Origin: Punctularia strigosozonata HHB-11173 SS5
Lineage: Eukaryota > Basidiomycota > Agaricomycetes > Corticiales > Punctulariaceae
Assembly: GCF_000264995.1 (NCBI RefSeq)
Contig: NW_006767442.1
Location: forward strand, 1,564,552 to 1,628,551
DNA length: 64,000 nucleotides
Reading direction: 5' to 3'
Below, piece after piece: positions 15,242-50,461 of the stretch (positions are counted from its first letter, which is position 1; the number at the start of each line of letters is the position of its first letter). Below the pieces are notes generated by a model. The model searched no databases and was not told where the DNA came from. It saw nothing but the letters and a program-made list of their open reading frames with translations. Made by a program: the position numbers and the translations under genes.

Positions 15242-15249
15242 CCACGTGG
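15242..15249 (+). promoter_or_regulatory. CCACGTGG box upstream of A1
   Basis: This E-box-like palindrome sits 376 bp before the A1 start in a conserved block (CCACGTGGCTTCCGAGAG) that recurs before A2 to A5 at 381-390 bp. An intron probably ends just before the A1 start codon (acceptor GATCACAG at 15605-15612). Confidence 0.5.
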
Positions 15250-15617
15250 CTTCCGAGAGCCGTTGTACTTGGTTCGCTCTCTACCAGCTGCAAGTATGAG
15301 GAAACATCGCCTGAATCTTTGTCTCTTGTTCTGGTTCTCGGTACCTTGAAAATCCCTTATACGTCCAGCATGTCGCTGTGATCTGCTGCAGACCCAGGAG
15401 TTGTCTCACCCCCGAACGGCCCACCAAGCGTCTCACAAGTCTCCGCAAGACCTCCCGAAAGATATTTTCTCCAACACCGTAGTCAAGCATCGATAAGTGA
15501 GCCAGACTGTAAGGAACTTACAGGCTTGATCTAATCTGCACGCCGTAAGTCTTGAATTGATGGCTCAAACGGTCGACGCTCGTGGCTCACATTAACAGTC
15601 TGTTGATCACAGGCGAC

Positions 15618-17166
15618 ATGACGCATACATACAACCTCCGCGCTCGGCGATCGCCTTCTCACTTACCTCCTCCTCCGCCAACTACAGAGACTGCGAGGAC
15701 TCGCAGATCGAAAGCCACCCAAAAGGAGCTCGCACCTTCGAATCATCAGAAGAAGGTCGCTACGCAAATCAACCCCCGTCAGCCTACGCGACAAAGCAAA
15801 CGAAGTCGCCCCGCCGAACCCAGTGAAGAACGCGCTCGGAAACGGCATCGAGCGACTGAAGGGCCCGCGTCTTCGAATACCCAGAAGAAGGCCGTTGCTC
15901 GAACAGATCTCCCTCCCCCTACACGACAGACCAAACGAAGTCGACCTATCGAACCCGTCGAAGAGCGCTCTCGCAAACGACATCGTGCTGATGTTGATCC
16001 AATATTCTTGGATGTTGGTTCGCAGACGAGTTTACCAGAAGACAGGAACAACTTCAAGCGTCCCGCGGTGAAGCTGAACCGTCTACGAAGAAACACGTCA
16101 TCTGTTTGGAGGATAGTGGCTCAGACGGAGGAGGTTATAGCGCGCGCCAGTGCCAGCGCCAGGTGTTTGCTGAAGGATGTTATGCATCTGGACGCTCAGC
16201 GCGGAGAGCCTTCAGTGGAACGCGATGAACACGAAGGAAGACCCGGTCAACGCGAGCCGTATGTCACGTTATCGTTATCCCATTGCATCTTCTTTGCTCA
16301 CATCGCTCGAACACAGTCCGGTGGAGAACGACGATATCGTGCCCTCGAAGGACGAACGGCGAAAGGCTGACGCGCGCAAGGTCGCCGAGGAAGATTTCGA
16401 AACTTTCCTTGAAATGTTCCAAACCTTCCGCTCTGAGATCAGCGGCGACCCCGAGATGGCCTTCTCGAGTAAGAACATGCGCACTCTATCTACGTTCTGC
16501 GAAGATTGGGGCAAGGAGAATTCCGCTTGGCACGACTGCCGACGCACCAAGAGCCAGCAGGGCTTCGTTGACGCGGAAACATCTTCGCAGCCTAGACCTC
16601 GCGTAGGCGTGGACGAGCAGGGCCATCCCTTCCACGACTGGAGCGCTTGTCAACGGCAGTCGTGGCCGCCGCGGAGGCTGGGGAAGGAACGCATCATCAT
16701 GAGCTTGGTCGGCATCACGTTCAATCAAGCTGCAGAGACGGACGAGCTTGTTCTCCCGGCTCCGCTCCGTCCCCGGCGACCCCGAGTGTTTGCCGACCAG
16801 TATCGACTCCAGTTCCACGATATACCGAAGCCTATATATCGTCTGATGGAACGCTGGCACCGCATCTACGGGCGATGCGCGGAATGTGTCCTTCGGGCGA
16901 TCAAAACATTTCCGACCTGGATGCTGGAGGTGAACGACAAAGATCAATTCGTGGACGGCAATCCTGTCTTCGTCAATCTCTTGGACGACGAGCTGGCGGA
17001 GTGGGACGAGACGGGAAGACGATGGCGCCTTCTCGTGCTAGATCATTATCGCTGGATCCCAGTCCAGGAGTTAGAAGAGAGGTTAAGCGATAGCAATGCG
17101 GATCCCGCAATTGTCAACGGAACGATCAATACCGAGGTTCCGTACGATCACTGGTATTGGACTTGA
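15618..17166 (+). CDS. Array module 1, gene A: basic nuclear-type protein of unknown family
   Basis: Exons 15618-16258 and 16317-17166, 496 aa. The protein starts MTHTYNLRARRSP and has two copies of a basic module of about 23 aa (TRQSKRSRPAEPSEERARKR followed by HRA). Each holds two basic clusters like a bipartite nuclear-localisation signal. A helical segment (WRIVAQTEEVIARASASARC) precedes the intron. The C-terminal domain, about residues 215-490, contains SAWHDCRR, PRPRVGVDEQGHPFHDWSAC, RPRRPRVFADQ, ERWHRIYGRCAECVLRAIKT, VDGNPVFVNLL and RRWRLLVLDHYRWIPVQELE. The conserved cysteines (HDC, SAC, GRCxxC) could bind metal. I recognise no named family. The ATG is chosen because all six copies begin alike there and because in copies 4 and 5 an in-frame TAA precedes it across a leader intron. 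Confidence 0.85.
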
Positions 17167-17778: not shown

Positions 17779-20675
17779 ATGGCGCAACCGGCAAGACCGC
17801 CATCCCAGGGGTTGACAAACCCCGCAGTATTCGCGAAGCGGGCATCCCTCAAATACGAGCTGCGACGGACATCGACCGCCTGGGGTTTTTTCCAGTCTGC
17901 TAAGGCGGTAATTCCGCATCTAATCTTCAAGGCTCCATCGGGATCGGATGCACCACCCGAAACCAACGCCGAGAGCTCCAGCGCCGTGCAGGAGTGGCGT
18001 ATCTGGCGTGATGGATCCGGGTGCCTATTCGCCAGTACACCGAAAATGAGTGAGTGGCGTCGCGTTCCTCTCTCGGAAAACAGCCGCTCATGTCCGTCGC
18101 GCATAGCGGATACGTCATCCAGGGCGCTGGCGATGATTGTCAAAGGCCGATCTGAAGGAGGGGAAAGAGAGGTGGTCGGCATCTTACGAATGGGCGGGGC
18201 TACATCTCTGACTGTGAGCGTGACTCTCTATGCGTCCCGATATTCTACTGATACACGTACAGATCAATGACGAATACGTGGTACCCGGGAAATTATACAC
18301 GTTATCGCCGGACGATATCGTATGCATCGATAACAATGGTGCGTATTTACGCCATGCTTTTAGGATCACGCTCTCAACCGATTACCCAGAGTACATATAT
18401 CGCTACATTATGGACCTCGGTGAAGCTCCCACACACTGTAGCCGCTACAGTGTCGATGCACTGCTCGGGGAAGGGGCAGAAGGAGGTTAGTCGCGGACTA
18501 TTTGCGATTGAACGTTCCGTCCTGCGTGCTGAATCAGCTCCCCGTTCTTAGCCGTCGAACTTGCTACCTGCAACGCAACGCAACGCGCAGTTGCTATCAA
18601 AACCGTAAAACTGGACTTCCGAACCTTCAGGAAAGTGGCCGACGAAATACGCCAATGGGAAAGATTTACCCATCCAAATGTCGCTTCGTTGATCGACTGG
18701 TGCACAGACCCAGAAAGGCCCACGGTGTTGTGTAAGTACGCGTTCATAAAGGACATTGTGCACGCTGCTGATTCATGTTTTTGCTCTCTAAAATAGTTAT
18801 GGTTCTTCATCTGGCACCCCATCAATCTCTGCTCCATTACATCGCACGCAACGGAAAGCTACGTGAGTCTAATCCTCGAGGTCCGTTTACCGAGTTCATG
18901 GCTTATTGTGCGGACGTCAGCCGAGCAACTTGCCAAGCCCGTCATAGCCCAAGTTATCAACGGTCTCATGGTTAGCTCCAAAAGGTTCACTTTGTAGTCT
19001 CTCTTCTAACCTCTCGTCGATAGTACATGCATGAGGAGGGGTTTCTTCACCGTGACATCAAACCCGAGGTTCGTATCTTTGGGAGTTCCTCTTTGAACCG
19101 TCCTTGGATTAATCGAAGTGTCTCCAGAACATCCTCGTCTTCCACAAGGACAAATCAGGTGTCCTCACCGTCAAAATTGGAGACTTCGGGACGTGTATCC
19201 CGAAAAACGAGGATCCTAACGCGGTAGTGGTCAGTGGGTCCAATCTGATCGGATTTTCGCCGGAATTGATTTCGAATTTAGGACCGTGCGGGAACCGCCA
19301 CTTGGGCTGCACCCGAAGTAGCGATCAAGCGGAACACCGAGATTAGCGATGTCTTCTGTGTTGGCGGGGTGATGTACTTCATGTGGGTCGTATTCTATGG
19401 CTTCAGAGGGCTTTCGGTTTATGCGTTTGTCAGACTGTTCAAGAAACGACCGTTTCTCCTCAAAGAAGGAGAGAAGGATATGGCAGCACTGATCACGACA
19501 AGGCGATCGCAACTTGTGGAAATTAGCGAGGCCGCTCCGAACGCAGGTCATGAAGACAGCACCGAGGAGCAAGTTGGCGACAAGCGCCGTGATGATAACA
19601 ATAAGGACAAAGGGACCGCGAACAATGCAGGCAAGAAGGATCGGAAGAAGCCCAAGCTCAGCGACGACGGTGAGCCTACCTCGTGTCTTGTATATATACC
19701 CGTGGCTAAAGTCGCATCAACCTGATAGCTCGAGACTTGCTTCGCGGACTATTGAATGAAAATCCTTCTGAACGCTGGGGTTTGCGGAAGGCTCTGAACT
19801 CTCCGTGGCTGCAAGGATGTACAACGCCGAAGGGCCGCGTTCCGCCTCTCACCCCTCGCGATCCTCTGGTCCACAACCTCGTCGCATTGGTTCGAAGCCC
19901 CGCCTTGGCTCCCCCTTATATCCCCGAGTGGTACAGACCCGAAGACGCGCCGGCACCGGCGGAGGAAGTTGTGTCTCAGATGCAGCCTGGGCCAGCCGAC
20001 AAGTATGTTCGATGCGGTACAAAATCCCTTACCCCACCGCCGCCGCCGCTAGCTATCGATTTGCCAGCCAGTAACAGACCAAGGCCTGCTCGTTCACCTG
20101 CTGTACCCGCACCCGTGACCGAAGCAGCACCGGTTTACAAGCGAGTCTGGACAAAACGCACGATCCAACTTCCAGCATCGTCGCCGCGGACCGTTATGGC
20201 CGCGTCCTCGGGATCCGTAAGTAACATGCCAGTCGCCGGTCCTAGTCGCGAAGCATATGGTCCAGGGCCTTCCATGAAAAGGCCGCTCGTTATGCCCGAA
20301 GCAGAGCCCTCGGAGCGTGTACCCGTACCCCCGCAGGACGCTGTTATGGACGTCGATCTTGGCCTCGAGGCAGCCGAAGAGGCGGGAGCTACGGGTGCTG
20401 ACACCGTGCGAGCTGCAGCTACCTTGAAGGCTCCTCTACTTCCGCGTACTGGGGCTCGTGCTCGCGCAAGGAAAAACGTTGCCTCCTCCCTGGAACCACC
20501 TGTCAGGCGCTCGGCTCGCATCCGCAATAAGGCCGCCGGTACTGTTGACGGCACAGATGCCACACCCCGTGGAGCGCAGGCTGCATCCGGAGTCAAGGTG
20601 CAGGTTGCGACCGGTGAGAAGAGGAAGGCGGGTGCGCGATCTGAAAGGAGCAGCAAGAAACGCAGGACCGACTGA
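17779..20675 (+). CDS. Array module 1, gene B: CHK2-like kinase with degenerate FHA-like N-terminus
   Basis: Twelve exons: 17779-18049, 18107-18213, 18263-18338, 18390-18485, 18552-18731, 18797-18862, 18921-18970, 19024-19068, 19128-19229, 19282-19382, 19434-19669, 19729-20675, giving 758 aa in one frame. Residues 1-155 look like an FHA beta-sandwich (STAWGFFQSA..., then INDEYVVPGKLYTLSPDDIV) but lack the usual GR and SxxH residues. Kinase motifs: glycine loop GEGAEGAV near residue 179, VAIK lysine near 199, FLHRDIKPENIL near 290, KIGDFGT near 314, WAAPEVA, and the CHK2-like end LLNENPSERW...SPWLQGC. A charged linker interrupts the late kinase lobe before the last exon. The tail of about 300 aa ends in VRRSARIRNK and SKKRRTD, a likely nuclear signal. 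It should be an active nuclear Ser/Thr kinase; targets are unknown, and its partner gene A is the obvious candidate. Confidence 0.88.
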
Positions 20676-21405: not shown

Positions 21406-22956
21406 ATGACCCATACATATAACCTCCGTGCTCGGCAGTCGCCTCCTCATTTCTCTCCGCAACCAACTATACAGACCGGGACAACTCGTAGACTGAAAGA
21501 CGCCCGAAAAGAGCCCGCACCTTCGAATCCTCAGAAGAAGGTCGCTGCTCAATCCAACACCCCTCAGCTGACGCGACAAAGTAAACGAACGCGACCCGCC
21601 GAACCCAGTGAAGAGCGCGCTCGAAAGCGACGTCGGCCGAGTGCCGAACCAGCAGTCTTAGGCGCTGGTTCGCAGACGAGATTGACAGAAGAGAAAGTCG
21701 ACCTCCCTTCTCCTACGCGAAAAACAAAACGATGTCGACCTCCCGAACCCAGCGAAGAGGGCGCTCGAAAACGTCATCGGCCGGATGCTGTGTCTGTCAT
21801 ATTGGACGTCGATTCTGAAACGAAATTACCAGAAGAGAGGAGAAACCTCAAACGTTCCGCGGTGAAGCTGAGCCGCCTACGAAGAGATGCGACGAATGTT
21901 TGGAGGATAGTAGCTCAGACGGAAGAGCTCATAGCGCGTGCCATCACTAGCGCTAGGGGTTTGCTCTCTGATGTTATCCATCTGGACTCTCGCGATGAAT
22001 CTTCAGTGGAGCATGGCGCGCCCGAGGACAGATCTGTACAACCCGAGCCGTATGTAACGCTATTCTATTGCACTTCCTTTGCTCATGATGCGCGACGCAG
22101 CCTGAGGGAGAGGCTTGATACCGTGTCCTCGATAGCCGAACCCCCGCCGGCTGACGCACGAGAGGTCACTGAGGGAGAATTCAAGACCTTCATTCAATGG
22201 TTCAAGTACATCCGGTCCGATATCAGTGGTAATACCGCGAAGGCCTTCTCGAGTGATGATAAGCGCACCTTATCTACGCTCTGCGACAAATGGAGCGAGG
22301 AGAATCCGGCTTGGCACGATTGTCGATGCCGCGCGAGGCAGCGGAACCCTTCCGACGGGTGGTTTCCAACACCGAGACCTCGAATAGGCGTGGATCAGCA
22401 GGGCATTGCCTTCCACGACTGGAGCGCTTGCAAGAACCAAGCATCGCCACCACTGAGGCTGGGGCACGAACGACTTCTCATGATTGAAATTGGGATCATG
22501 TTCAATCACTCCGTTGAGACGGACGTGCTTGTACTTCCTGTGCCTATTCGTCCCCGACGACCACGAGTGTTTGCGGAACAGTACCGACCCCAGCTCCAGG
22601 ACATCAAGAAGCCCATCTATAGCGAACTCGAAGACTGGCACCGTAATTACGGACGGTGTATGCAATGTATCATTCGGGCGATACGGACGTTCCCCACCTG
22701 GATTGTCGAGGAGACCGATATGGATGGTTACGTGGATGGCAACCCCGTTTTCGTCAACATTCTGGGCGATGAGCGCGTAGAGTGGGATGAGACGAGAAGG
22801 CGATGGAGGCTTCTCGTGCGGGATCATTATTGCTGGATACCTGTCCAGGAGTTAGAGACGAGGCCCAGCGATAGCGCCGCGGATCCCAAGATCGTCAACG
22901 GGACGGCTAACACCGAGGTTCCGTTTGATCCCTGGACTTGGGTGTTACTTCGGTAA
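21406..22956 (+). CDS. Array module 2, gene A
   Basis: Exons 21406-22049 and 22101-22956, 499 aa. Layout as in A1: MTHTYNLRARQSP, two bipartite basic modules (TRQSKRTRPAEPSEERARKR; TRKTKRCRPPEPSEEGARKR), a helical segment, and the conserved C-terminal domain with PRPRIGVDQQGIAFHDWSAC and NYGRCMQCIIRAIRTFPTW. The intron is 51 nt, divisible by three and without an in-frame stop, so an unspliced message would encode a protein 17 residues longer. This is the only copy where I saw that. The HDC, SAC and GRCxxC cysteines are all kept. No sign of decay. Confidence 0.85.
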   Translation: MTHTYNLRARQSPPHFSPQPTIQTGTTRRLKDARKEPAPSNPQKKVAAQSNTPQLTRQSKRTRPAEPSEERARKRRRPSAEPAVLGAGSQTRLTEEKVDLPSPTRKTKRCRPPEPSEEGARKRHRPDAVSVILDVDSETKLPEERRNLKRSAVKLSRLRRDATNVWRIVAQTEELIARAITSARGLLSDVIHLDSRDESSVEHGAPEDRSVQPEPYVTLFYCTSFAHDARRSLRERLDTVSSIAEPPPADAREVTEGEFKTFIQWFKYIRSDISGNTAKAFSSDDKRTLSTLCDKWSEENPAWHDCRCRARQRNPSDGWFPTPRPRIGVDQQGIAFHDWSACKNQASPPLRLGHERLLMIEIGIMFNHSVETDVLVLPVPIRPRRPRVFAEQYRPQLQDIKKPIYSELEDWHRNYGRCMQCIIRAIRTFPTWIVEETDMDGYVDGNPVFVNILGDERVEWDETRRRWRLLVRDHYCWIPVQELETRPSDSAADPKIVNGTANTEVPFDPWTWVLLR

Positions 22957-23645: not shown

Positions 23646-26600
23646 ATGGCGCAATCGCAGGGATTGGCAAATCCCGTCGTATTTGCCCGACGTGCTTCCT
23701 ATCAACATGAACTGCGGCAGACTTCGACCGCCTGGGCCTTCCTTCAGTCTGCTAGGGCAGCTTTTCCGCATGTCATTCTCGAAGAATCGTCGCAGTCCCG
23801 TGCCCAAGTCGCCACCGGTCTGCAGGCGTGGCATGTCTGGCGTGACAAATTCGGATCTCTACACGCGAGTACGAAGGAGACATGTGAGTCACGCTTTGTG
23901 TAAGACCGGCAGTTGCTGAATTTTCTATCGTACGCAGCAGATGTACCATGCATGGCAGTAGCGTTGGTTCTCAAAGGCCCAGCTCAAGGAGGGCACGGAG
24001 ACGAAGTTTGTATGTTACGGATGAGCGAGTCCGTCCAGATGAGCGTGAGCATGACCTAACGTGCATCGTAATAATCGACCCACTCACAACTACCAGATCA
24101 ATGACAAGGACATGGCGGCCGGGAAACCATATGTACTGTCACCGGACGACATGGTACGCATCGAAGGCAATGGTACGTGCTCTTTGTTATATTCACTCAA
24201 GGACAGACTCTCACCCTGAATCAGAATACGCGTATCGCTACCTTGTAAATGTCGGCGATGCTCCCACGCACAGGGGACGCTACAATGGCAACGCGTTCCT
24301 CGGGCGGGGAGGGGAAGGAGGTCAGTCGTAAACAAATATCACACGCACTATCAGGCCTGACTAGAGCTATTGTCGGTAGAGGTCATTCTAGCCACGTGCA
24401 CCGCGACCGGGCGTGCAGTTGCCGTCAAGACTGTGAAGACGACTTACGATAACTTTGAGAAGGTTGCCCGCGAGCTCCGCATCTGGGCAGGTTTTCTGCA
24501 TCCAAACGTATTAGAATTGCTTGATTGGTGCACAAATCCAGACAAACCCACGGAGTTATGTAAGTAGTCGCTCACAAATTATACTGTATGGTGACACTCA
24601 TTCACGTTATCGTTGTGATATGAAGCAATGATCACCTCTTTAGCAGCTCATCAATCTCTGCTGCATTATGTCTTACGTCATGGAAAGCTACGTGAGTGGC
24701 ACCCTTGACTCCCGCAATTCCCAAAATTTGATTTCTTCACCATTGTTAGCTGAATATATCGCGCAGCCCGTCGTAGCTCAAGTGATCGACGGTCTCACGG
24801 TGAGCTTCAAAATTTCAACGTGAGGACATCCTTGAACTTTTCTCGGTAGTACATACACGAACAGGGTTTCCTTCACCGGGATATCAAACCTGAGGTCTGT
24901 GCCTTGTGGTATCATCTGTCCAATCGTCCTTGGACTAATAAAAAACAACTTCAGAATATCCTGGTCTTTCGCCAGGACGAATTTGGCGTCCTTACCGTCA
25001 AAATTGGCGATTTCGGAACGTGTATCCGGAAAAAGGAGGATCCTAACGCACCAGTAGTGAGAAGCTCCCATTCCGTCCAATTTTTCGCTGGAGCTCATGT
25101 TCCAACTCAGGATCGTGCGGGAACTACGAATTACGCCGCGCCTGAAGTAGCGATGAGGCGCAACAACGAGCTAAGCGACGCATTTTGTGTCGGAGGCGTG
25201 ATGTACTTCATGTCGGTCCTATCTTCACATCTCAAAGCGCTTTGGCTGATTCGTGATCAAGATTGTTCAAGAAACGGCCGTTTCTTGTCCGAGAAGGAGC
25301 GAACAATGTTGTAGATGAAATCACAACCAGGCAATCGCAACTTGTGGAACTTGACGAGGTTGCTCCGAATGAAACCGAAGAGAACGCCGCCGAGGAGAAC
25401 GATGCTAAGGAGAAAGACTCTGAAGCGAATGACGCCGGAGCGAACGACGCCAACGGTGACAGTGGCAACAGCAATGCCCCCACCGAGGATGCCCAAGGCA
25501 CAGGCAACGATGACGTGAAAAAAGGCTCGCTCAGCAAACATGGTGAGCTGACCTTGTATCCTTCAGGGGACTCCTGTGATTGAAGTCGCTTTCACCTTCA
25601 CAGCTCGAGCTTTACTCCGCGGATTGTTGCAGGAGAACCCTAAAGATCGTATGGATCTCCGGCGAGCTCGGCAGTCTCTTTGGCTGCAAGGTTGCGTAGT
25701 TCCGCAAGGGCGCGTTCCGCTTCTGACCTCCGGCGATCCGCTGTTCCATAACCTTGTCGCTCTCGCGAAGTTCGCGTCCTTGGCTCCTCCTCATATCCCC
25801 GATCGCTACCGACCTGGAGATGCGCCGGCACCGGCAGAGGAAGTAGTGTCACGGATGCAGCTGAATCCCGCCGACAACTATACTCGAGGCGGTACAGAAC
25901 CCCTCGTCACTCCAGAGCAAACCGTCGTCGCGTCACCCGCTAGGCAGGGTGTTGTAGGGTTTCCTCGTCCGTATCCCGTGCAGGAAGACGGTCCGAGGCG
26001 TACGCCAGGTCCTTCGGGACCACTCTCCGCACATAATTCGTCAACCCCGACACCGGTCGTCGTGAAGATCGAGACAGTTTCTGACATTGATTTGTCCACC
26101 GCTTCACCACCCTTCGCGACGCCTGGCAGTAACAGAGCGAGCCTTGCTGCTGCTCCAGCGCCAGTAGCCGTAGCCCGGACACAACGTTCAACTCAAACTC
26201 GATCGTCGTCGTCGTCGCCGTCGCCTGGCGCTTCCGCCTATGGAGAAAGCGCTGCTCTAGCCCCGAATTCAGCGCAAGTCGCCGGACCAAGTCGCGCAGC
26301 TCATGGTCAGGAGTCGACGAATCCGCTGTTGACGTATCGGCCATTCTATCCCCAGCCGTTGCAGCCCATAGCGGAGGACCTGGAGCGCGCAGAGACTGCT
26401 TCCCAAGTGCTAAACGCGGCCCTGGAGCATGTGCCCGTGCCCCCGCAGAACGCTGCTATGGACGTCAACCTTGTCCCTGAGCCAGCCGAAGAGCCAGGAG
26501 CCGCGGTGACCGACACCGTACCAGCTGCATCTACCTTGAAGGCCCCTCCTCCACGCACGCGGGCTCGTACTCGCGCAAGGAAAAACGCTGGATCTTCCCC

Positions 26601-26793
26601 GGCAGTGCCTGTCAGACGATCGACTCGCATCCACGACAAGCGCGCTGGTACTACCAGCGGTGCGATCGCCGCGACTCATGATGCGCAGGTCGCGCCAGCG
26701 GTCGGGAAGAAGGGGACGTTGGCGGCGACCGGAGAGAAGAGAAAACTGTGTGCACGAGCGGAGAAGGCTAGCAAGAAACAGAAGACGGGATAA
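23646..26793 (+). CDS. Array module 2, gene B: CHK2-like kinase
   Basis: Same exon plan as B1. Exon 1 is 23646-23883, exon 2 starts at 23938 and the last exon carries the tail to 26793. N-terminal FHA-like part: QTSTAWAFLQSA and INDKDMAAGKPYVLSPDDMV. Kinase motifs: LGRGGEGEV loop, VAVK, YIHEQGFLHRDIKPENIL (about 24850-24970), KIGDFGTC (about 25003), YAAPEVA, and RALLRGLLQENPKDRMDL. All catalytic residues are present, so it looks active. The linker in the late kinase lobe is rich in Glu, Asn, Ala and Asp repeats. The tail carries VVVKIETVSDIDLST and ends VRRSTRIHDK...SKKQKTG. About 25,875-26,790 is almost identical to B3, far closer than the rest of the two genes. Confidence 0.87.
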
Positions 26794-29726: not shown

Positions 29727-32700
29727 ATGGCGCAATCTCAAGGATTGGCAAATCCCGCAGTATTTGCCCGACGTGCTTCTTATAAACATGAACTGCGGCA
29801 GACTTCCACTGCCTGGGCATTTCTCCAGTCTGCTAGGACAGCGTTACCACATGTCATTTTCGAAGCGCCAACGCAGTCCCGTACCCAAAACGCTATCGGC
29901 ATACAAACGTGGCACGTCTGTCGTGACAAATCAGGCTCTCTGCATGCGAATACGAAGAAGACTGGTGAGTCACGCTCGCCGCAAGAATCGCAGTTCCTAA
30001 AATTACCGTTCACAGCGGACGTATCATACGACGCTGTAGCGTTAATTCTCAAGGGTCCAGCTCAAGGAGGGCAAGCAGAGGAGGTATGCATGTTACGGAT
30101 GAGCGAGGCCGTACAGATGAGCGTGAGCATAACCTCACATCTATCGAAATGATCGAGCCACTCACAAATATTTAGATCAACGGCAAGGACATGGCAGCCG
30201 GGAAACCATATGTACTGTCACCGAATGACATCGTACTCATAGAAGACAATGGTACTGCCGTCAAATTCACACAGAGATAACCGCTCACTCCTTATATCAG
30301 AATATGCGTATCGCTACCTTGCGAACGTCAGTGAAGCTCCCACACACCTGGGACGCTACGATCTCGATCTGCTCATCGGGTCCGGAGCGGAAGGAGGTCA
30401 ATCGTGGATAACTATTATACCCACTCTCAGGCCTAACTTGTGTCATTGTCTGTAGAAGTTCAGCTCGCTACGTGCACCGCAACCAAGCGCGCAGTCGCTG
30501 TCAAAACTGTGAACATGACATACGAAACTTTTGGCAAATTCGCCCATGAGATCCGCCTGTGGGAAGGTTTCTGTCACCCTAATGTGCTAGAGCTGCTGGA
30601 TTGGTGCACCAATCCAAAGAGGCCCACGGAGTTATGTGAGTACTCACTTAAAATTTGCTCCAGGCGATATCCATTCCCGTTTTCATTGTGTATCTCAGCG
30701 ATGATCACCTCTGTGGCACCCGAACAATCTTTATTACACTATGTCGCGCGTTATGGAAAGCTGCGTAAGCCGCACTCTCGACGTCCGTGATTTCCCGAGC
30801 TTATGATCTGTTTACCCCATGTCAGCCGAATATCTCGCGCAGCCCGTCGTCGCTCAAGTTATAGACGGCCTTATGGTAGGCTTTCAAGGGTTTCAATGCG
30901 AGGTCTTCTCTGAACATTTGTCGGTAGTACATACACGAACAGGGTTTCCTTCACCGGGACATCAAACCTGAGGTCCGTACCTTGTGATATCGCCTGTCCA
31001 ATTGTCCTTGGTCTAACAACATTGCCTTCAGAACATCCTGGTTTTCCACCAGGACGAATCTGGCGTTCTCACCGTCAAAATTGGCGATTTCGGGACGTGT
31101 ATCCGGAAAAAGGAGGATCCTAACGCACCGGTGGTGAGGGGCTCCCATTCCGTTCGATTTTCGCTGGAGCTCATGTTCCGATGCAGGACCGTGCGGGAAG
31201 TACGAACTACGCCGCGCCTGAAGTGGCGATGAAGCGCAACAACGAGCTAAGCGACGCATTCTGTGTCGGAGGCGTGATGTACTTCATGTGGGTCCTATCT
31301 TTACAACTCAAAGCGCTTTGGCTGATTCGGGATTCAGATTGTTCAAGAAACGGCCGTTCCTGGTCCGAGAAGGAGCAAAAGACGTTGTAGATCAAATCAC
31401 AACCAGGCGATCGCAACTTGTGGAACTTGACGAGGTCGCTCCGAATGCAACGGAAGAGAATGCCGCCGAAGAAAGTGCTCGCGGAGTGAATGCCGGCGGA
31501 GCGAATGCCGCCGAAGAGAACGGAGCTAAGGGGGAAAATACCGGAGCGAATGACGCCGGAGCGGACGACGCCAACGGTGGCAGTGGTAACAGCAATGCAC
31601 CCACCGAGGAGGCCCAAGCCACAGGCAACGATGACGTGAAGAAAGGCTCGCTCAGCAAACATGGTGAGCTGAGGTTATATCCTTCGAAATATTCCTGTGA
31701 TTGAATCACTCTTACAGCTCGCGCTTTACTCCGCGGATTGTTGCAGGAGAAACCCGAAGATCGCATGGATCTCAGGAGAGCTCGGGAGTCTCCTTGGCTC
31801 CAAGATTGCGTAGTTCCACAAGGGCGCGTTCCGCCTCTGACCTGCGGCGACCCGCTGGTCCAAAACCTTGCCGCTCTCGCTGAGTTCACGTCCGCGGCTC
31901 TTCCTTATATCCCCAGCCGCTACCGACCTGGAGACGAGCCGGCACCGGCGGAGGAAGTCGTGTCACGGATGCAGCTGCATCCCGCCGACAACTATACTCG
32001 AGGCGGTACAGAACCCCTCGTCACTCCGGGGAAAACCGTCGTCGCGTCACCCGCTAGGCAGGGTGTTGTAGGGTTTCCTCGTCCGTATCCCGTGCAGGAA
32101 GACGGTCCGAGGCGTACGCCAGGTCCTTCGGGACCACTCTCCGCACATAATTCGTCAACCCCGACACCGGTCGTCGTGAAGATCGAGACAGTTTCTGACA
32201 TTGATTTGTCCATCGCTTCACCACCCTTCGCGACGCCTGGCAGGAACAGAGCGAGCCTTGCTGCTGCTCCAGCGCCAGTAGCCGTAGCGTCATCACATTA
32301 CATCCGTCAAGCCCGGACACAACGTTCAATCCATCTTCGATCGTCGTCGTCCTCGCCGTCGCCTGGCGCTTCCGCCTATGGAGAAAGCGCTGCTCTAGCC
32401 CCGAATTCAGTGCAAGTCGCCGGACCAAGTCGCGCAGCTCATGGTCAGGAGTCGACGAATCCGCTGTTGACGTATCGTCCATTCTATCCGCAGCCGTTGC
32501 AGCCCATAGCGGAGGACCTGGAGCGCGCAGAGACTGCTTCCCAAGTGCTAAACGCGATTCTGGAGCATGTGCCCGTTCCCCCGCAGAACGCTGCTATGGA
32601 CGTCGACCTTGTCCCTGAGCCAGCCGAAGAGCCAGGAGCTGCAATGACCGACACCGTGCCAGCTGCATCTACCTTGAAGGCCCCTCCTCCACGCACGCGG

Positions 32701-32931
32701 GCTCGTACTCGCGCAAGGAAAAACGCTGGATCCTCTCCGGCAGTGCCTGTCAGACGATCGACTCGCATCCACGACAAGCGCGCTGGTACTGCAGTCGGTG
32801 CAATTGCCGCGACTCATGATGCGCAGGTCGCGCCAGCGGTCGGGAAGAAGGGGATGTTGGCCACGACCGGACAGAAGAGGAAGCTGGGCGCACAAGTGGA
32901 GAAGGCCAGCAAGAGACAGAAGATGGTATAA
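29727..32931 (+). CDS. Array module 3, gene B: CHK2-like kinase
   Basis: Same twelve-exon plan. FHA-like end: INGKDMAAGKPYVLSPNDIV. This copy shows the most CHK2-like glycine loop, LIGSGAEGEVQLAT (after the splice near 30396-30456), followed by VAVK, QSLLHYVARYGKL, YIHEQGFLHRDIKPE (about 30929-30973), NILVF, KIGDFGTC, YAAPEVA and RALLRGLLQEKPEDRMDL...SPWLQDC. All catalytic residues are kept. The linker in the late lobe is an expanded Ala/Gly/Asn/Glu repeat (about 31,440-31,640). The tail is nearly identical to that of B2 but carries eight extra residues (24 nt near 32290) and ends VRRSTRIHDK...SKRQKMV. Confidence 0.87.
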
Positions 32932-36349: not shown

Positions 36350-39202
36350 ATGGCGCCAACGCTACGGCCTTCGTCACAGGGGTTGGCGAACTACAAACTA
36401 TTCGCTCAACGCGCGTCCCTGAGGTATGAACTGCGACATACTTCCACCGCTTGGGGCTTCCTGCAATCTGCTACGAGGGCCGTGCCGCATTTGGTTTTCA
36501 AGGCTCCGTCTAGGTCTAGCGCCCAAAGCTCTGACGATGTTCAAGCTTGGCGTATCTGGCGTGACATATCCGGAACTCTGCACGCTAGTGCACAAGAAAT
36601 TCGTGAGTGGCGCATGGTACAGGGTGAACAGCGACTTATATACGGCTTGCAGCGGACTCGTCATCCACTGCTGTCGCCTTGATCCTCAAGGGCCCGGGAG
36701 AAGGAGCGCACAAAAAAGAGGTGGTTTGCATATCCCCGAGGAGCAAGGCCGCTCATATCAGCGTGAGTGTGAACCTATATACGTTACTCAGATCTGACCG
36801 CCCGACATCACAGATTAACAACGAAGAGATTGAGGCCGGGAAACTACGTACATTGTGCCCTGACGACACTGTACGCATCGATGGAAACGGTGCGTGTTCT
36901 GCGCTCTTGTTGCTGGAGTTTCACTCTTATCCCGCTCTAGAGTATGTTTATCGTGATCTCGTGAATGTCGGAGACTATCCAACGCACCGAGAACGGTACG
37001 ATATTGGACTTTCTATAGGACGTGGAGCTGAAGGATGTAGGTCATAAACAGTGGTTCATCGCACGGTCAGCCTGACTCCTGAATGTCTCCTTGTATCAGT
37101 TGTCGACCTCGCCACCTGCATCACAACCGGACGTATGGTCGCCATCAAGACTGTCCAGATGGATTTCAAAACGTTCAATAAACACGCCAACGAGGTTCGC
37201 CTTTGGGAAGGGCTTCATCATCCGAACGTGAATGAGATGGTTGATTGGTATCGAGATCCCGAGAAACCCACGCTTCTATGTGAGTCCACCTCCATTGCAC
37301 CATCCTTCAGGATGCTCACTTCCTAGCATGAACGTGAATTCAGGCACTGTATCCCTTTTGGCCGGTCACCAGTCTTTGTACCATTACGTTGCACGTTGGG
37401 GAAGACTTCGTGAGCCTCCCTGATGAACACGATATGCTCAATCACTAACCTCTCGATGAATATCAGCCGAGAAAAACGCCAAGCCCGTCGTAGCTCAAGT
37501 TATTGAAGGTTTAATGGCGAGTCTCCTATGTGCGTTGATCGCGGTCACATTCGTCTGACAGTTATCGGCAGTACATCCATTCGGAAGGGTTTCTCCACCG
37601 CGACATCAAAGCCGAGGTTCGTTCACACTTTCCTTGCCCGCACGTTAATAACCGGACTCACAAAGCTACTGCCCAGAACATCCTCGTCTTCCACAAAGAT
37701 GATTCAGGCGTCCTGACCGTCAAGATCAGCGATTTTGGAACGTGCATTCCGATTGACAAGAACCCGGATGCGATAGTGGTCGGTGACGATCTCATGTGAA
37801 CTCTTCATAAGCTCATGCGCCGACATCCAGGATCACGCGGGTAGCGGAAATTGGGCCGCACCTGAAGTGGCATTCGGGCGTAACAACGAGATCAGCGAGG
37901 CCTTTTGTGTGGGAGGTGTTATGTTCTTTTGGTAGGCCATGGTACTGCATTTCCCACTCCATGCTGACGCGTCTGCCAGCTTATACAGAAGACGGCCATT
38001 CCACGTTCAAGAAGGAGCGACCGACATAGTCGCCCAGATCACGACCAGGCAGTCGCAACTTGCGATCATAGGAAATGAGGACGAGGACGATGAGATAAGC
38101 GAAGAGGACGATGATAATAAACGACCCGGCGGTGACGGTGAGTCAAAAAGTTGTACTTCACATTATATCATTAACGTTGATTTTCCGCAACTCTACAGCT
38201 CGGCGCTTGCTTCGTGGGCTGCTCAAGGAGGATCCTGACGAGCGTTGGGATTTAATGACTGCAAAGGCATCCCCTTGGCTACAAGGGTGCACAATCCCAA
38301 AAGGGCGCGTCACGCCTCTCGCTCCCAACCATCCGCTTGCCCACAACCTCGTCGCTTACATCCACTGCCGCGCCTTGGACCCTGCTTCTATCCCCGAGCA
38401 ATACCAGCCTGGACAACAGCCGGCGCCGGTGGAGGAAGTTACGCCACAGATACAGCCGGGAGCCGCTGACAACTATACTCGAGGCTCTACGGAATCCCTG
38501 TCTACCCATGCGCTGTCCTCAGTCACGTTACGCATCCAGGAGAGTATGAGGTCTGCTACTCCACCTGCTACTCCAGGACCAACTGCCGCCGCACCTAACG
38601 ATGTCCGAAGACACCGCTCAATCCATCGTCGGTCGTTGTCGCCGTTGCCTGGCCCGTCCGCCTATGAGATTCCTTCCGGAGGCAGCCCTGCTCCAGCCCT
38701 GGGTTCAGCGCAAAACGCCGGACCGAGCCGCCTAGCTCGTGAACACGAGTCGACGGAGCCGCTTTTCACGCCCGTCGTAGAGGACGTCGAGCATGTCGAG
38801 ATTGTCCCAGTATCAGTGTCAAAAGCGGTGTTTGAGCACGTACCGGTCCCTACGCTGGACGCCGCTATGGACGTTGATCGTGTCCCGGGGGCAGCCGAAG
38901 AGCTGGGATTTGCGGGCGCCGACATCTTGCCAGCCGCAGTGACCTTGCACGCGGCCCCTCGTCCTACAGGTACTCGGACACGTGCTCGCGCAGGGAAAGG
39001 CGTCTCCTCCTCTTCCCCGAAACCACCTGTCAGGCGCTCGGCTCGCATTCGTGATCAGTGCGCTGGTATTGTTGGGGGGAAAACTGCCGCACCTCGCGGT
39101 GCGCAGGCCGCGTCCGGGGGGAAGGTGAAGGTTGCGACCGGCGAGAAGAGGAAGCTGGGCGCGAGGGTTGAGAAGATCAGCAAGAAACGTAAGACGGATT
39201 AA
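36350..39202 (+). CDS. Array module 4, gene B: CHK2-like kinase
   Basis: Same exon plan. It starts MAPTLRPSSQGLANYKLF. FHA-like part: HTSTAWGFLQSA and INNEEIEAGKLRTLCPDDTV. Kinase motifs: IGRGAEG loop, VAIK, YIHSEGFLHRDIKAE (about 37571-37616; the usual KPE is KAE), NILVF, KISDFGTC (about 37723), NWAAPEVA, RRLLRGLLKEDPDERWDL...SPWLQGC. The donor of the intron inside the late lobe has moved by a few bases (GTAGGC at about 37932) and yields FFCLYRRRPF in place of the FILFKKRPF-type junction; the frame is kept. The linker is shorter and acidic (NEDEDDEISEEDDDN). The tail ends VRRSARIRDQ...SKKRKTD. Catalytic lysine and aspartates are kept. Confidence 0.85.
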
Positions 39203-41990: not shown

Positions 41991-44810
41991 ATGACGCGGA
42001 CATTACGATCATCGTTTCAGGGGCTAGCGAACCTCAAAGTATTCGCTCAACGCGCTTCCCTCAGATACGAACTGCGGCACACGTCAACCGCCTGGGGCTT
42101 CTTCCAGTCGTCTGCGAAAGCCATGCCGCATGTTCTGCTGAACACTTCGTCCCACACTAGCCCTACCGACATTCAGGATTGGCTGATTTGGCGTGACAAA
42201 TCCGGGACTTTGCAAGCTAGCACGCCGACAACTCGTGAGTGGCACACTTTCTCCGATGAATAGCAGTTCATCTCTTCGGAATGCAGCGAATAGATCATCA
42301 ACTGCTCTAGCTGTAATTCTGAAGGGTCCGGGCGAAAGGGAAGGCACAGTGGCAATCTGTATGTCAAGAAGGAGCGAAACCGCGACCATGAGTGTGAGCG
42401 CGACCACAATCACACCATATAGTTCGATCTAACAAATGGCAGATCAACGGCGAAGAAATGGTGCTCGGACGTCTGTACACGCTGTCGCCGGACGACAGTG
42501 TCCACATCGATGGCAACGGTATGCGTTTCTCGTTAAACTTAGAAGAATCGCTCTCATTCAACTGCACAGATTTTGTATATCGGCTGCTTACACATCTCGG
42601 GGATGATCCGAGGAACAAAAACAACTACGTCAAGCAACTGCAAATCGGGAGCGGGGCAGAAGGAGGTTGGTCATGAATAGTCGTTAGCCGCGCCTCAATC
42701 GCGTCCTGAATGTCTGCTTTGTTTCAGTCGTCTCCATGGCCAGATGTACCACGACCGGATGTATGGTTGCCATCAAGAAGGTGCAGATGCGCCATGGTTC
42801 TTTCGAGAAATATGCCAATGAAATCCGTCTTTGGGAGGGACTTCATCATCGTAATGTGAACTCCATGGTCGATTGGTATAGAGATCCCGACAAGCCTGCG
42901 CTCCTATGTGAGTTCACTTACATGCCGCACTCCGTGCTGAATCTCACTCCCACCTCGATCTCTCATAAAAGATATTGTCTCTCACTTGGCTCCCCATCAG
43001 TCTCTGTACCATTACATTGAACGTTTCGGCGGACTTGGTGAGTCTCCTGCCCCCGCGGAGTTCGCGCTGTGTTAGTCTGATGGCCTGCCAGCGGAGGAAC
43101 TTGCCAAACCTGTACTAGCTCAAATTATTGATGGTCTTACGGTAGTCTCGCGATAGACGCTTTTTTTCCAGGCTCGCTGACGACTTTTTTGCAGTACATG
43201 CATGCGCAAGGGTTCCTCCATCGCGACATCAAACCTGAGGTTAGTGTGTTGTTGTCGTCCCCGTTTCGAGTCTGGGTCTCATGAGACAGTAGAATATCCT
43301 CGTCTTCCACATAGATGAATCGGGCGTGCTCACCGTTAAGATAACCGATTTTGGGACGTGCATCCCGATCAACGAGAATCCCGACGCCAATGTGGTTAGT
43401 GGGCGTTCATCTGATACTGTTATATCTCACGTTCTCGGATTCCAGGACCGTGCGGGTACTGCCAATTGGGCTGCGCCTGAGGTGGCAATATCGCGGAATA
43501 ATGAGATCAGCGAGGCTTTCTGTGTAGGAGGCGTCATGTTTTTCATGTGGGTTGAACAATCACATTCTATAAGATCTTGACTGACGTAAATGAACCAGTC
43601 TGTTTGCCGAACGCCCGTTTCTTGTCAGCGACCAAGCGAACGATATGGCCGAGATGATCAGGACCAGGCTTTCACAACTCGATCGCATAGGACCAGATGA
43701 AGATGACGAGGAAATGGATCATGAGGATACGGACCACCACCGCCCTACTCGGGGGGACGCCGACCGCGAAGACGACCCGCTCACCCGCAGCGGTATGTCA
43801 ACACTCCTGTGATTAAAGATGTGTCCTCATCGGCGTCGAATTTGTTAGCTCGACGCTTACTTCACGGGTTACTCAAGGAAAACCCTGCGGAGCGCATGAA
43901 CCTGATTCAAGCACGGCAGTCCTCTTGGTTGCAAGGTTGCGCAGTTCCACAAGCGCGCGTCCAACCTCTGTTCTCTCGCCACCCTCTAGCTCATAACCTT
44001 TTCGCCATTCTTCAATGCCACTCCTTGGATCCGCCACCTATCCCGAGGCTATACACACCTGGAGTCCCTGTGGTTCGCGTTCTGCGGCGGCTCCGCACGC
44101 CGATTTCGAACTACCTCCGAGGCTCGACGGAGCCCCTCGCCTCTCCCGGGTCGCCCATTTCCGACGCCGTGGGTGCTATAGGTTTTCCTCGATCGAATCG
44201 CACGCCAGGTTCCACTGGCCTGCTCTCCGCACATCATTCGTCAACTACGATGCCGGTACACGTGAAGACCGAAACAGTTTATGATATCGACTTGGCCACC
44301 CCTCCAACATCTCTCGCGCTCCCAGGTATTAATAGAGCGGGACCTGCAACTCCATGCTCAACTCTACGCGCGACTCCTGCGCTGCCTATCGGCCAGGAGC
44401 ACGTCGAGCGTGCTGCGGGTGCCAAGCCAGTGCCAAGCGCGGTCTTGGAACATGAACCCATCTCCGCGCCGGACGCCGCTGTGACCGTTGACGGCGTTCG
44501 TGATGCAGCCGAAGAACCAGAAGTTGCGGACGCCGACGCTTTGCCAACTGCAGTTGTCTTGGAGGCTTCTCGCCCTCGACGTACTCGGGCTCGTGCTCGC
44601 GCAGAGAAAGGCGCCTCCTTCTCTATCCCGAAACTACCTGTCAGGCGCTCGTCTCGCATTCGCGACAGGCGCGCCGGTACGGCTGGTGAGAAGTTCGCCG
44701 CATCTTACGGCGCGCAGGCTGCGTCCGGGGTCAAGGTGGAGGTGACCGGCGAGAAGAGGAAGCTGGGCACGCGGGTAGAGGAGATCAGCAAGAAACGCAA
44801 GACTGATTGA
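41991..44810 (+). CDS. Array module 5, gene B: CHK2-like kinase
   Basis: Same exon plan. It starts MTRTLRSSFQGLANLKVF. FHA-like part: HTSTAWGFFQSS and INGEEMVLGRLYTLSPDDSV. Kinase motifs: IGSGAEG loop, VAIKKVQM, QSLYHYIERFGGL, YMHAQGFLHRDIKPE (about 43195-43240), NILVF, KITDFGTC, DRAGTANWAAPEVA, and a clear AT/T splice giving LFAERPFLV. The end of the kinase domain is RRLLHGLLKENPAERMNL...SSWLQGC. The linker is acidic (DEDDEEMDHEDTD). The tail carries VKTETVYDIDLAT, related to the motif in B2 and B3, and ends VRRSSRIRDR...SKKRKTD. Catalytic residues are intact. Confidence 0.87.
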
Positions 44811-46811: not shown

Positions 46812-47487
46812 GCAAGCATTCGCATGTCGTCACCACCACCGATGAACTGTACATTGTTCGTATCTCTATATAGCTCTCAAACAAGGCTAATGTGGGATAG
46901 TGATGTTGACTCCGAGATCGCTGGGCGGTAGTGGTTCGAATGATGCTGGCCCGCATGGCCACGGTTCCTCATCCAAATCGGACCGGACCGGCATGGTCTA
47001 GAGTACATTGCGCGTGGGGATGCCTTTGCGTTTACCTCTTCTCATAGACTGGCGTTGTCCGCGAATGAAACATACGATCAGGCCACGCTACTTATGTGGT
47101 CGTGGCACATGTCTCACTCATGCCCTATATCCTATCGGCAGCCCTTGTTGGTGGATGTTATAATGCCTAGGCGTGCCACCAGAATCGCGAAGCTTGCTTC
47201 ACGCAGTGCTCTGCTCATTTCAATGATAACGACCCTCTTTAGGCCTTGTAAAACTTGGAATCTAACGACGACGTATTGCTCTTTTCTTTCGGATGAAACA
47301 TTTGTCCCGTCGGTGGCCCTAGTTCCAGCTCCATCCAGGGCAAATGATAGTTGCTGAAAACACGATGGTGGCATCGGAAGTCACAGGCATCGGGCCACTG
47401 TATTTGTGGAGCGGGAACATATAAGGCGCTGTGCGTGTATCGATCATGAACTCTTTTCTTCCTTCAACTTGCTTCCCATTCACGGAT
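46812..47487. other. A6-B6 spacer with B6 promoter
   Basis: About 675 bp; TATAAGG at 47420-47426 lies 68 bp before the B6 start. No gene seen. Confidence 0.45.
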
Positions 47488-50461
47488 ATGGCGCAGCGAT
47501 CCTCTGGGTTCACGGACATCGCGGTATTCGCTCGACGCGCATCCTTCAAGCACAGACTGCGACAAACCTCCAGGGCCTGGGGGTTCCTTCAGTCTGCTAC
47601 CAAAAGCAGGTCGCATGTCATCTTCGAGGAACCGGGCCCGGTTCCTCAGAATCGATCAGGTGTGAACACTCGGGACGATATTGAATCTCTTGAGTGGTGC
47701 ATCTATCGCAACGAAGGTGGTTTGTTGTACGCCGCTGCACGAAAAACAGGTGAGTGGTGTCGAAGAATCGACATGATCTACATTGATTCCTTGCAGCAGA
47801 CGTTTCGTCGGACATCATTTTAGTGGTCAAGCGGATAAAAAATGCAACCAAAGGGGACTACGCAAAGGAAATTTCCCTTGTTAGAGCAAGTGAAGCTGTC
47901 GCAGTGATTGTAAGCGCTCTCTTTGAGATATATTATGTCTTTGTCGCCCACAATATAACGCAGATCAACGGCGAACGAGCGGCCCTCGAACGGGAATATA
48001 AACTCTCGCCTGATGAAAGTATAAATATCGATGGCACTGGTGCGTACTACTCTCCCCTTATATTCATCACATGCGCGCTGAGTCGATGATATAGATTACG
48101 TCTTCCGTTCCATGCAGGATGTCGAGAGTGCTCCTATGCATGCCTCGCGCTACATCCCTGATAAGATCATTGGAAGCGGTGCTGAAGGGGGTACGTCAAG
48201 GATTTAGTTATTGATGGCCGAAAACTGAGTTTCATGGTCAGAGGTGTTTATCGCCCATACTGTTGCCGGGCGTGCGGTGGCAGTCAAAAGTATCAGGATG
48301 AAGCAGCCAGAATTCGGCAAATTTTGCTTTGAGGTTAGCCTGTGGGAACAATTGCAACATCCAAATGTCCTCCCTTTGGTCGACTGGTGCAGGGATCCCG
48401 AGCAACCCAGAACGCTGTGTAATTATAATCCACACCGCTTTTATCCACATACTCATTTTTTTCCCCGAAGTACTGATCACACCGTTGGCCGCTTACGAGA
48501 CAGCCGAGCGCTACATTGAATATCATGGGAGTCTTTGTAAGTTCGCTCCTCATTCTCCGCATAAACATGGTCTTCTAACATTTCTGACATATGTTAGCGG
48601 ATCAACTTGCCCGACCTGTTGTAGCGCAGCTGATGGAAGGCTTGTTGGTAAGCTCCTCCACGACGCATAGATTGATGATCATCTGACAGATGACTCTTAG
48701 TACATCCACGCTCAAGGTTTCCTTCATCGCGACATCAAACCCGAGGCTCGTGTTTCTCACTTCACCTCTTACGCACCGCATTGACCTGTGAATGGTGTAG
48801 AATATCCTCATTTTTCATAAAGACAGTCAAGGCGTACTCACTATTAGAATCTGCGATCTTGGTATATCCATCCCAATCAACAAGGACCGCGATGCGATTG
48901 TAGTAAGTGCGATTCCAAAACCCCGTTCTTGTCAAAGTCACGGAATTTGGTCCAGAAACGAGCAGGCACCTCAAACTGGGCTGCACCCGAAGTATCCGAA
49001 AGGCGATATACTGAGAAGAGTGATGCATTTTGCGTAGGAGGCGTCATGTTCTTCCTGTGAGTCACGATAGGCTGCCTCCACTACTCGCTTGACTCAACTA
49101 TGGTATAGCATATTCGGCAGGCGGCCGTACCTCGTTGCAGAAGGCGCAGATGACATGATCACCCAGATGTCCACTAGGCTTTCTCAGCTGAAGGCCCTGG
49201 AAGCGCCATGGCTCCACGAGGACGGTAAGCGCTTCTGGGCACAAGTAAACGGGATGAGATGCTGACCTCGAACGCTATCTATAGCTCGAGACTTGCTCAA
49301 CGGATTACTCTTGGGAGATGCCGACAAGCGTTGGGACTTGCCCAAGGCACGAAGATTCAAGTGGCTCCAAGGACATCAGGAAAAATCGGACTATCGAAAG
49401 AGTCGCTTATTGAGTACCGAAACCCTCTAAAGCTACTAAATGAGCACGTTTTAGTACGTTTTAGGAGGTTTTTAGCAAATCCGGTTTTTCCTGATGGATG
49501 CACCCTGCCTACGTCCCGGATATCGTCTCTATATTATGACGACCCGTTGGTTCAGAATCTATTAGCCCTTGCTGATATCCGTGAGAGGATTCCTCCCAAG
49601 AGAAGAATTGCTGAACGTTACGTGCCGGGAGCTCCACAAGAGTCGCTTGAAAACGTTCAAGCGCTTCCCCCACTCAGACCAGAACCTACCCAGGGTGACA
49701 CCGAAGACGCGACGCAACCCCTCTCTACCCGCGAGCCATCAAACACGGAATTGCCAGCCCCCAACAGCGCCGAACACGCTCAACAGGCATCTACCATGAT
49801 GCCGGTCGCCGGGGCCGCATCGAGTAACGACCAAGACTCGAGACAGCTCTCCAAGCGCGTACCTTCGGCCGCACCTCTGGTGCCCGTCGTTAACGGCGCA
49901 GGCCCCGTCACTGGTGCTGGACCCGTTGCTTTGCTTCCTGGACTCCCGAACAACTCCCGTTCGATCGACGCGCAGGACTCAGCGCAACGGCGACAATCGT
50001 CGACTGCGACGCTGGTGCCACTTGTCGCGGAGAGCGAGGCAAATCCAGCTACGTACACGGAATATGCTGTGGGCGCGCCAGTCGCCGGACCGGAGCCGTC
50101 CACCTCCACCAGGGCGCAACGTGCCGAGGAGGGTTCACCCACCGCGCCTCCGCCGTTCGAGAAAACCACGGCGCACGTCCCGATGGACGTTGACCCTGAC
50201 GGGCCTGCGGAAGTCGTCGTTCCACCGGCTCCAGAGCCTGCCCGGCCTTCGCGTACGCGAGCTCATGCTCGTGTTCCGGAAAGTGCCTCCTCCCCGAAGA
50301 AGCCCGTCAGACGCTCGACTCGCATTCGCGACAACCACGCCGCACGCGTCAAAGCGCAGGAAGTACAGGCCGGGAACAGGGCGGCCGTGAACGACGGGAA
50401 GAAGAGGAAATCCGATGGTCAAGTTGCGATGAGGTCGAACAAGAAGCACAAGACTAGATGA
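47488..50461 (+). CDS. Array module 6, gene B: CHK2-like kinase interrupted by a MITE-like insertion
   Basis: Same exon plan; start at MAQRSSGFTDIAVF (an in-frame ATG 42 bp earlier is possible). FHA-like part: QTSRAWGFLQSA and INGERAALEREYKLSPDESI. Kinase motifs: IGSGAEG loop, VAVKSIRM, YIHAQGFLHRDIKPE (about 48702-48747), NILIF, then CDLGIS where the others have DFGTC, NWAAPEVS and RDLLNGLLLGDADKRWDL. The DFG phenylalanine is Leu, which still permits activity. Just after the WLQG motif the last coding exon holds a 122-bp element (49374-49495). Read straight through it brings an in-frame stop; spliced at 49414-49475 the frame is restored into DGCTLPTSRISSLY and the tail, ending VRRSTRIRDN...NKKHKTR. 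So B6 is either broken or has gained an intron. Confidence 0.78.
49374..49495. mobile_element. 122-bp MITE-like insertion in B6 coding exon
   Basis: The ends are inverted repeats: ATCAGGAAAAATCGGA at the left, TCCGGTTTTTCCTGAT at the right, one mismatch over 16 bp. GGA stands on both sides (49371-49373 and 49496-49498), and removing the element plus one GGA restores the CAAGGATGCACC context seen in the sister genes. It contains GTACCG (49414), CTACTAA (about 49433) and TTTTTAG (ending 49475), a complete set of intron signals. Confidence 0.75.

Follow-up and report, generated by a model that had tools for sequence, protein, structure and literature searches.

Kinases of the CHK2, RAD53, Cds1 and Mek1 type are laid out as an FHA domain followed by a CAMK-group kinase domain and a basic tail, and the residues with which an FHA domain binds phosphothreonine lie in three motifs, GR, SxxH and NG. 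We analysed a stretch of 64,000 nucleotides (nt) from the basidiomycete Punctularia strigosozonata HHB-11173 SS5 (contig NW_006767442.1, positions 1,564,552 to 1,628,551; hereafter, the window), in which genes for a kinase of similar layout, designated B, alternate with genes for a basic protein, designated A, that belongs to no known family as judged by its sequence. Our leading, though tentative, reading is that a lineage-specific module of two genes for nuclear signalling, in which B acts on A, was amplified in tandem; joint duplication of two neighbours that do not interact follows closely behind.

As an earlier note on this DNA had claimed, A and B alternate six times on one strand (A1 B1 A2 B2 A3 B3 A4 B4 A5 B5 A6 B6), giving 12 genes, all on the + strand, between 15242 and 50461 (window coordinates; Table 1). 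Genes were modelled with a splice-aware Viterbi finder; B2 was built by hand, and the six B genes were modelled by spliced profile alignment against the other copies. Start codons of successive A genes are 5.55–6.21 kb apart, and the first direct-repeat family by itself has six copies 5431–6200 nt apart. The conservation of intron positions described in the same note was also seen. Each of the six A genes has two exons and a single phase 2 intron of 51–58 nt, whereas all six B genes contain 11 introns of identical phases (1,0,1,1,1,1,0,0,0,2,1), each 46–73 nt long as modelled. The modelled introns are GT-AG with the single exception of intron 8 of B6, which is GC-AG; from reading its sequence, intron 7 of B4 is probably a second GC-AG intron, in which case exon 7 would reach 37516 and the protein would gain six residues. 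All 12 genes have open frames, although B6 requires an additional intron in its tail. Without this twelfth intron, B6 meets a stop shortly past the kinase domain; the intron has one donor and two acceptors, both of which preserve the kinase end WLQG and the open frame. Retention of the A2 intron, whose 51 nt preserve the frame and contain no stop, would also leave an open frame, of 516 amino acids (aa). A tblastn search (expect value, E, up to 1e-3) that covered the rest of the window and its − strand revealed no remnant of A or B.

The spacers had been described as conserved, which holds for their lengths (571–1130 nt from A to B, n=6; 610–732 nt from B to A, n=5) but not for the A-to-B sequence, which aligns over its length only between modules 2 and 3 (461 nt); the two other matches span 31 and 56 nt. 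Better conserved than these spacers are the A promoter, in modules 1–5, and the stretch just past B.

Unrooted trees of the A and of the B proteins share the topology (1,(2,3)),((4,5),6), and duplication therefore proceeded by the whole unit, as had been proposed. Support in the A tree is 98–100, obtained by a method other than that used for B, for which we used the Shimodaira-Hasegawa-like approximate likelihood ratio test (SH-aLRT) and the ultrafast bootstrap. In the B tree, two branches are weaker: (4,5), with SH-aLRT/bootstrap values of 96.7/95 for protein and 48.1/60 for DNA, and the split of 4–6 from 1–3, which received 82.1/74 and 97.6/96, respectively. Two tracts of unusual similarity resemble gene conversion. 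The first covers the A promoter and A N-terminus of modules 4 and 5, which are 84–97% identical per 100-column block, compared with 45–65% in the three preceding and 70–78% in the four following blocks. Synonymous divergence (dS) between A4 and A5 is 0.043 in the first region (48 codons) and 1.377 in the last (107 codons). The second tract covers the tails of B2 and B3, with 91–100% identity per 100-column block; the preceding blocks, from 25000, are 84–93% identical and the block after it 76%, and dS is 0.052–0.076 in residues 501–720 compared with 0.537 in the kinase region. We read from these trees and tracts that whole A–B units were duplicated and that local gene conversion came afterwards.

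The copies have remained under purifying selection. The ratio of nonsynonymous to synonymous divergence (dN/dS), which had been proposed as a check and which we computed pairwise by the Nei-Gojobori method, was 0.20–0.50 across the 15 A pairs and 0.10–0.36 across the 15 B pairs, that is, 0.10–0.50 over all 30. Because dS is at least 1 in most pairs (11 of 15 for A, 12 of 15 for B), single ratios are rough. The trees, dN/dS values and isoelectric points (pI) were computed with the earlier B6 model and with the B4 model short of its six residues. By region, constraint in B is tight over the kinase part (0.12–0.21, six pairs) and weakest over residues 601–720 of the tail (0.67–0.96, six pairs). 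The last region of A is its tightest (0.12–0.36, four pairs), and residues 1–245 are its loosest (0.37–0.68). The highest computable regional value is thus 0.96, three values for an insert in B being undefined.

B appears to be a working Ser/Thr kinase of the CAMK group. Strong Pkinase matches (Table 1) were obtained for B1, B5 and B6, the three proteins scanned at full length against Pfam, and the Gly loop, VAIK/VAVK, HRDIKxEN, DFG/DLG and APE are present in all six, B6 carrying DLG where the others have DFG. The same three proteins had no EF-hand match at E up to 10, and their scores with Pkinase_fungal (PF17667, which we take to be FunK1) were 14.9, 15.3 and 18.9 bits, below the cut-off of 24.1. 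Among the matches listed, the best PDB sequences for the kinase domain are CDPK and CaMK1. Neither CHK2 nor RAD53 was among the best 60 of the 554 PDB sequences (E up to 1e-20) found with the six-sequence kinase profile; with B1 as query, RAD53 stood 42nd among the best 60, with 74 bits compared with 102 for the top match. In a scan of prokaryote genomes with the B kinase profile, the best 80 of 191 relatives were all bacterial or archaeal, with 23–36% identity in the best segment. The kinase domain of B1–B5 contains an acidic, low-complexity insert of variable length (residues about 385–445 in B2) that B6 lacks. The tails end in a lysine-rich stretch, as had been noticed, and all six carry the reported RRSxRIR motif, except that its last position may be R or H. 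The pI of the last 120 residues is 9.97–11.22.

The N-terminal part of B (about 160 residues) gave no Pfam FHA match in any of the six proteins at E up to 10, and its profile found a single PDB match, a homoserine dehydrogenase at E 0.86, within the same limit. When this profile was aligned by hhalign with bacterial FHA regions (14 distinct ones, from three genomes), 83 columns matched with a probability of 74.1 and a score of 34.0. By comparison, 300 column shuffles reached at most 20.3, and the reversed profile scored 10.6. The controls (labelled A1, A3 and A4, which are A proteins, and A5, a kinase) scored 10.7–14.8, with no other beta-rich family among them. The score was the same for 19 rows picked with a hidden Markov model (150 shuffles, at most 19.8) as for the 14 distinct rows (150 further shuffles, at most 20.3). 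Poorer FHA sets scored lower: a mixed one with some rows in the wrong frame gave 25.8, and six rows picked by regular expression, one of them wrong, gave 17.9, with up to 17.3 in its 100 shuffles. At the corresponding FHA positions of the aligned segment, all six proteins keep an Arg (R77 of B1) and an Asn (N128 of B1), whereas another residue stands in place of the His in SxxH; the only SxxH strings are ahead of the segment, in B2, B3 and B6. The FHA-like domain of B is thus diverged and perhaps blind to phosphothreonine. No SQ/TQ cluster was found, the first 60 residues of each B containing 0–3 SQ or TQ. The description of B as CHK2-like in the earlier note thus fits its layout, with an FHA-like N-terminus, whereas membership of the CHK2 family is unproven.

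A consists of basic N-terminal repeats, a variable linker and a conserved C-terminal region. The basic segments that had been noted in both partners are evident from motifs and pI, that of the first 130 residues of A being 11.45–11.95. The repeated TRQSKR...RKRxR module reported in A is represented by two TR..KR.R repeats in A1–A5, although A6 has only one. Of 98 columns invariant among the six proteins, 73 lie from residue 246 onward, and five invariant potential metal ligands (H286, C288, C325, C401 and C404 of A1) might form a metal site. Pfam searches with all six proteins returned five weak families, each in one member only (best E 0.0096, YlbD_coat). No AT-hook was among these matches; KRGRP, the core of the AT-hook, occurs as a string in A4 and A5 only. 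A PDB search with the A profile showed a resemblance of the A core to Sap1 over 50 ungapped residues (E 0.02), about equal to that of ribosomal protein S7e in the same search (E 0.023), and the Pfam Sap1_N family matched A2 alone among the six, with 14.7 bits compared with a cut-off of 27. In PMC6053445, the domain of Sap1 is described as a bundle of four helices of the Myb type. We treat the Sap1-like stretch as a lead only. Foldseek with the first of two AlphaFold2 models of A found no PDB match at E up to 0.001, and a scan of viral contigs with the A core gave 86 pattern matches, none of which encodes a relative.

Upstream of A1 lies CCACGTGGCTTCC, which contains an E-box core, CACGTG; this site is the position at which the array had been taken to start. 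Exact copies of CCACGTGGCTTCC are found at 21025, 27123, 33280 and 39485, upstream of A2–A5, and the exact scan detected none upstream of A6. TGTCTCAC is present upstream of all six A genes, with one additional copy at 47110. A TATA-like box was recognised by eye in the alignment of the regions upstream of B, and directly past the B stop codons is a stretch around CTATGATCTATGGTCTATG, which a loose pattern matches in five of six cases and which was seen by eye in B1. Because of their own upstream elements, A and B look like separate transcription units. A bicistronic A–B transcript is disfavoured, since B has its own TATA-like box.

How might the two proteins work? In the mechanism that we propose, B would be an active kinase that probably docks through its FHA-like N-terminus and would be directed to the nucleus by its basic tail. 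A would be a basic DNA- or chromatin-associated protein whose N-terminal repeats could provide nuclear entry and nucleic-acid contact, with the conserved C-terminal His/Cys region as its putative functional core. B may bind and phosphorylate A or, alternatively, A may hold B at DNA, and each module would be a matched A–B pair. Joint function is argued for by retention after such divergence: neither partner has decayed in any of the six modules, although most pairs have reached a dS of at least 1. The presence of both genes, intact, in every copy suggests, short of proof, that A and B work together.

Several observations weigh against such a module. All six pairs go back to a single ancestral adjacency, which counts once; joint duplication cannot prove cooperation because this is not a set of six independent associations. 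The earlier claim that the pair is duplicated as a unit and hence acts together thus stands as to unit duplication and the retention of intact genes, but the step from there to joint action is weak, and contact between A and B is something that we infer from sequence. The conversion-like tracts affect A in modules 4/5 and B in modules 2/3, so that the partners were not visibly homogenised jointly. Inspection by eye, with no motif search, showed no promoter element common to A and B, and co-regulation is therefore unsupported. Pfam searches with all six A proteins recognised no DNA-binding domain, and the two AlphaFold2 models of A, built from six-row alignments, have mean predicted local distance difference test (pLDDT) values of only 44.7 and 43.8, probably owing to scarce homologues.

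In the closest rival reading, A and B would be unrelated neighbours copied jointly by unequal crossing-over and kept separately, without interacting, a possibility that we take seriously even though we lean slightly away from it. A single ancestral adjacency accounts for all six pairs, the promoters and the conversion-like tracts of A and B are separate, and the nearly free evolution of the B tail (residues 601–720) is as expected of a protein without a fixed partner surface there. Less readily explained are the basic segments in both proteins and the failure of any module to lose either partner despite the dS values given above. A dead or decaying array would explain the GC-AG intron of B6, the extra tail intron that its open frame requires, and the free variation of the B insert and tail, yet 12 of 12 open frames, catalytic motifs in six of six kinases and dN/dS well below 1 make this scarcely credible.

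The kinase-partner module itself could take a more specific form, previously undescribed in basidiomycetes. The array would then comprise dedicated pairs of a family-less His/Cys nuclear protein and an FHA-like CAMK kinase, running as parallel matched channels from A1–B1 to A6–B6 with fixed cores and diverging docking or tail segments, possibly in nuclear identity or dikaryon control; we consider this unlikely. A further rival is that the array adds an arm to the DNA-damage or meiotic checkpoint, in which B would be a kinase of the CHK2/Cds1/Mek1 type and A its chromatin substrate. The order of FHA-like domain, CAMK kinase and basic tail, which is the CHK2-type layout, and the basic repeats of A speak for it, but it is rendered quite improbable by the lack of a Pfam FHA match in all six proteins, the loss of SxxH from the aligned segment, the missing SQ/TQ cluster and the low standing of CHK2 and RAD53 among PDB sequences. 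Slightly less probable again, in our judgement, is a diversified basidiomycete system of self/non-self recognition or nuclear identity (allorecognition, dikaryon control or genome defence) with paired copies varying between strains. Such a system would be suited by the divergence of the six copies, the fast evolution of their linkers, insert and tails, and the conversion-like tracts between them; however, no computable regional dN/dS exceeds 1, the cores are under purifying selection, the array is known here from one genome, and Pfam names no domain of this kind in the six A proteins, the six B N-termini or the three B proteins scanned whole.

If A and B do pair, six sets of kinase and partner, diverged naturally within one genome, would be available for learning how new signalling channels arise and remain insulated, and a function could be assigned to a nuclear-type protein without a family. 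Should the two not interact, the locus would still be a clean example of a unit whose duplicates have lasted long and have undergone local conversion.

Table 1. Coordinates, in the window, of the array genes, the E-box element and the conversion-like tracts.
Feature	Position	Strand	Remarks
E-box element (CCACGTGGCTTCC)	15242..15254	+	upstream of A1; exact scan and alignment of A upstream regions
A1	exons 15618-16258, 16317-17166	+	496 aa
B1 kinase	17779..20675	+	757 aa, 12 exons; Pfam Pkinase E 1.5e-50
A2	21406..22956	+	499 aa; intron 22050-22100
B2 kinase	23646..26793	+	842 aa, 12 exons
A3	exons 27513-28162, 28214-29063	+	499 aa
B3 kinase	29727..32931	+	865 aa, 12 exons
A4	exons 33664-34277, 34334-35219	+	499 aa
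B4 kinase	36350..39202	+	744 aa as modelled, 12 exons
A5	exons 39870-40480, 40534-41419	+	498 aa
B5 kinase	41991..44810	+	739 aa, 12 exons; Pfam Pkinase E 3.3e-46
A6	exons 45421-45896, 45953-46811	+	444 aa; the most diverged of the A genes
B6 kinase	47488..50461	+	756 aa (first model), 771 aa (last model); most divergent B; Pfam Pkinase E 2.3e-43
Conversion-like tract, modules 4/5	33242..about 34031	+	A promoter and A N-terminus
Conversion-like tract, B2/B3 tails	about 25855..26730	+

Immediately upstream of the array, a predicted protein of 232 aa (14243-15014, +) gave neither a Pfam match (E up to 0.01) nor a tblastn match with A or B. Further upstream are a dye-decolourising peroxidase gene (9652-11401, −; DyP_N E 1.5e-44, Dyp_perox_C E 3.9e-07) and a predicted protein (7943-9193, +) with a hydrophobic N-terminus and two similar halves, each based on the repeat LGFxxGxNPxGTGxCDGAVNGADGKPIKIPCxCPP, also without a Pfam match at E up to 0.01. 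The peroxidase gene and the short introns are what one would expect of a filamentous basidiomycete. An EcKL-like phosphotransferase extends across two adjacent open reading frames (ORFs) (6123-7394, −; E 2e-12 and 5.7e-06), and one or two genes for oxidases of the berberine-bridge type occupy 1189-6069 (+; FAD_binding_4 E 4.6e-14, with a weak BBE match, E 0.0058, under the cut-off). Downstream of the array lies a piece of an EamA-like transporter (51158-52051, −; E 9.9e-05, under the curated cut-off). A transposon origin was considered and rejected, as blastn of the array edges (1250 and 1520 nt) gave two 11-nt matches only. None of the 20 flank sequences scanned, a set that extends to 58.5 kb and omits some of the smaller ORFs, was identified as a transposase.

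At the level of titles and the opening lines of abstracts, and with most subscription papers outside its reach, our literature search on kinases, tandem arrays and mushroom fungi brought up no comparable array. Like CHK2, RAD53, Cds1 and Mek1, B combines an FHA-like domain, a CAMK-group kinase domain and a basic tail in this order; unlike them, its FHA region is below Pfam detection, it has no SQ/TQ cluster, its nearest PDB kinases are not CHK2, five of its six copies carry an acidic insert in the kinase domain, and it occurs as six tandem copies, each adjoining an A gene. CDPK and CaMK1 share the CAMK-group kinase domain with B, which has an FHA-like N-terminus instead and, in the three proteins scanned, no EF-hand. 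FunK1 (Pkinase_fungal) and B are both fungal kinase expansions, although the B proteins scanned fall under the cut-off of that family and match Pkinase far better. Fungal kinomes are treated in PMC2838846. On the side of A, the nearest comparison is the DNA-binding protein Sap1 of fission yeast, whose 50-residue resemblance is not significant and was detected by Pfam in one of six copies. Tandem, lineage-specific expansion of kinase genes is thus of a known kind, whereas the carriage of an orphan nuclear-type gene in each unit is unusual.

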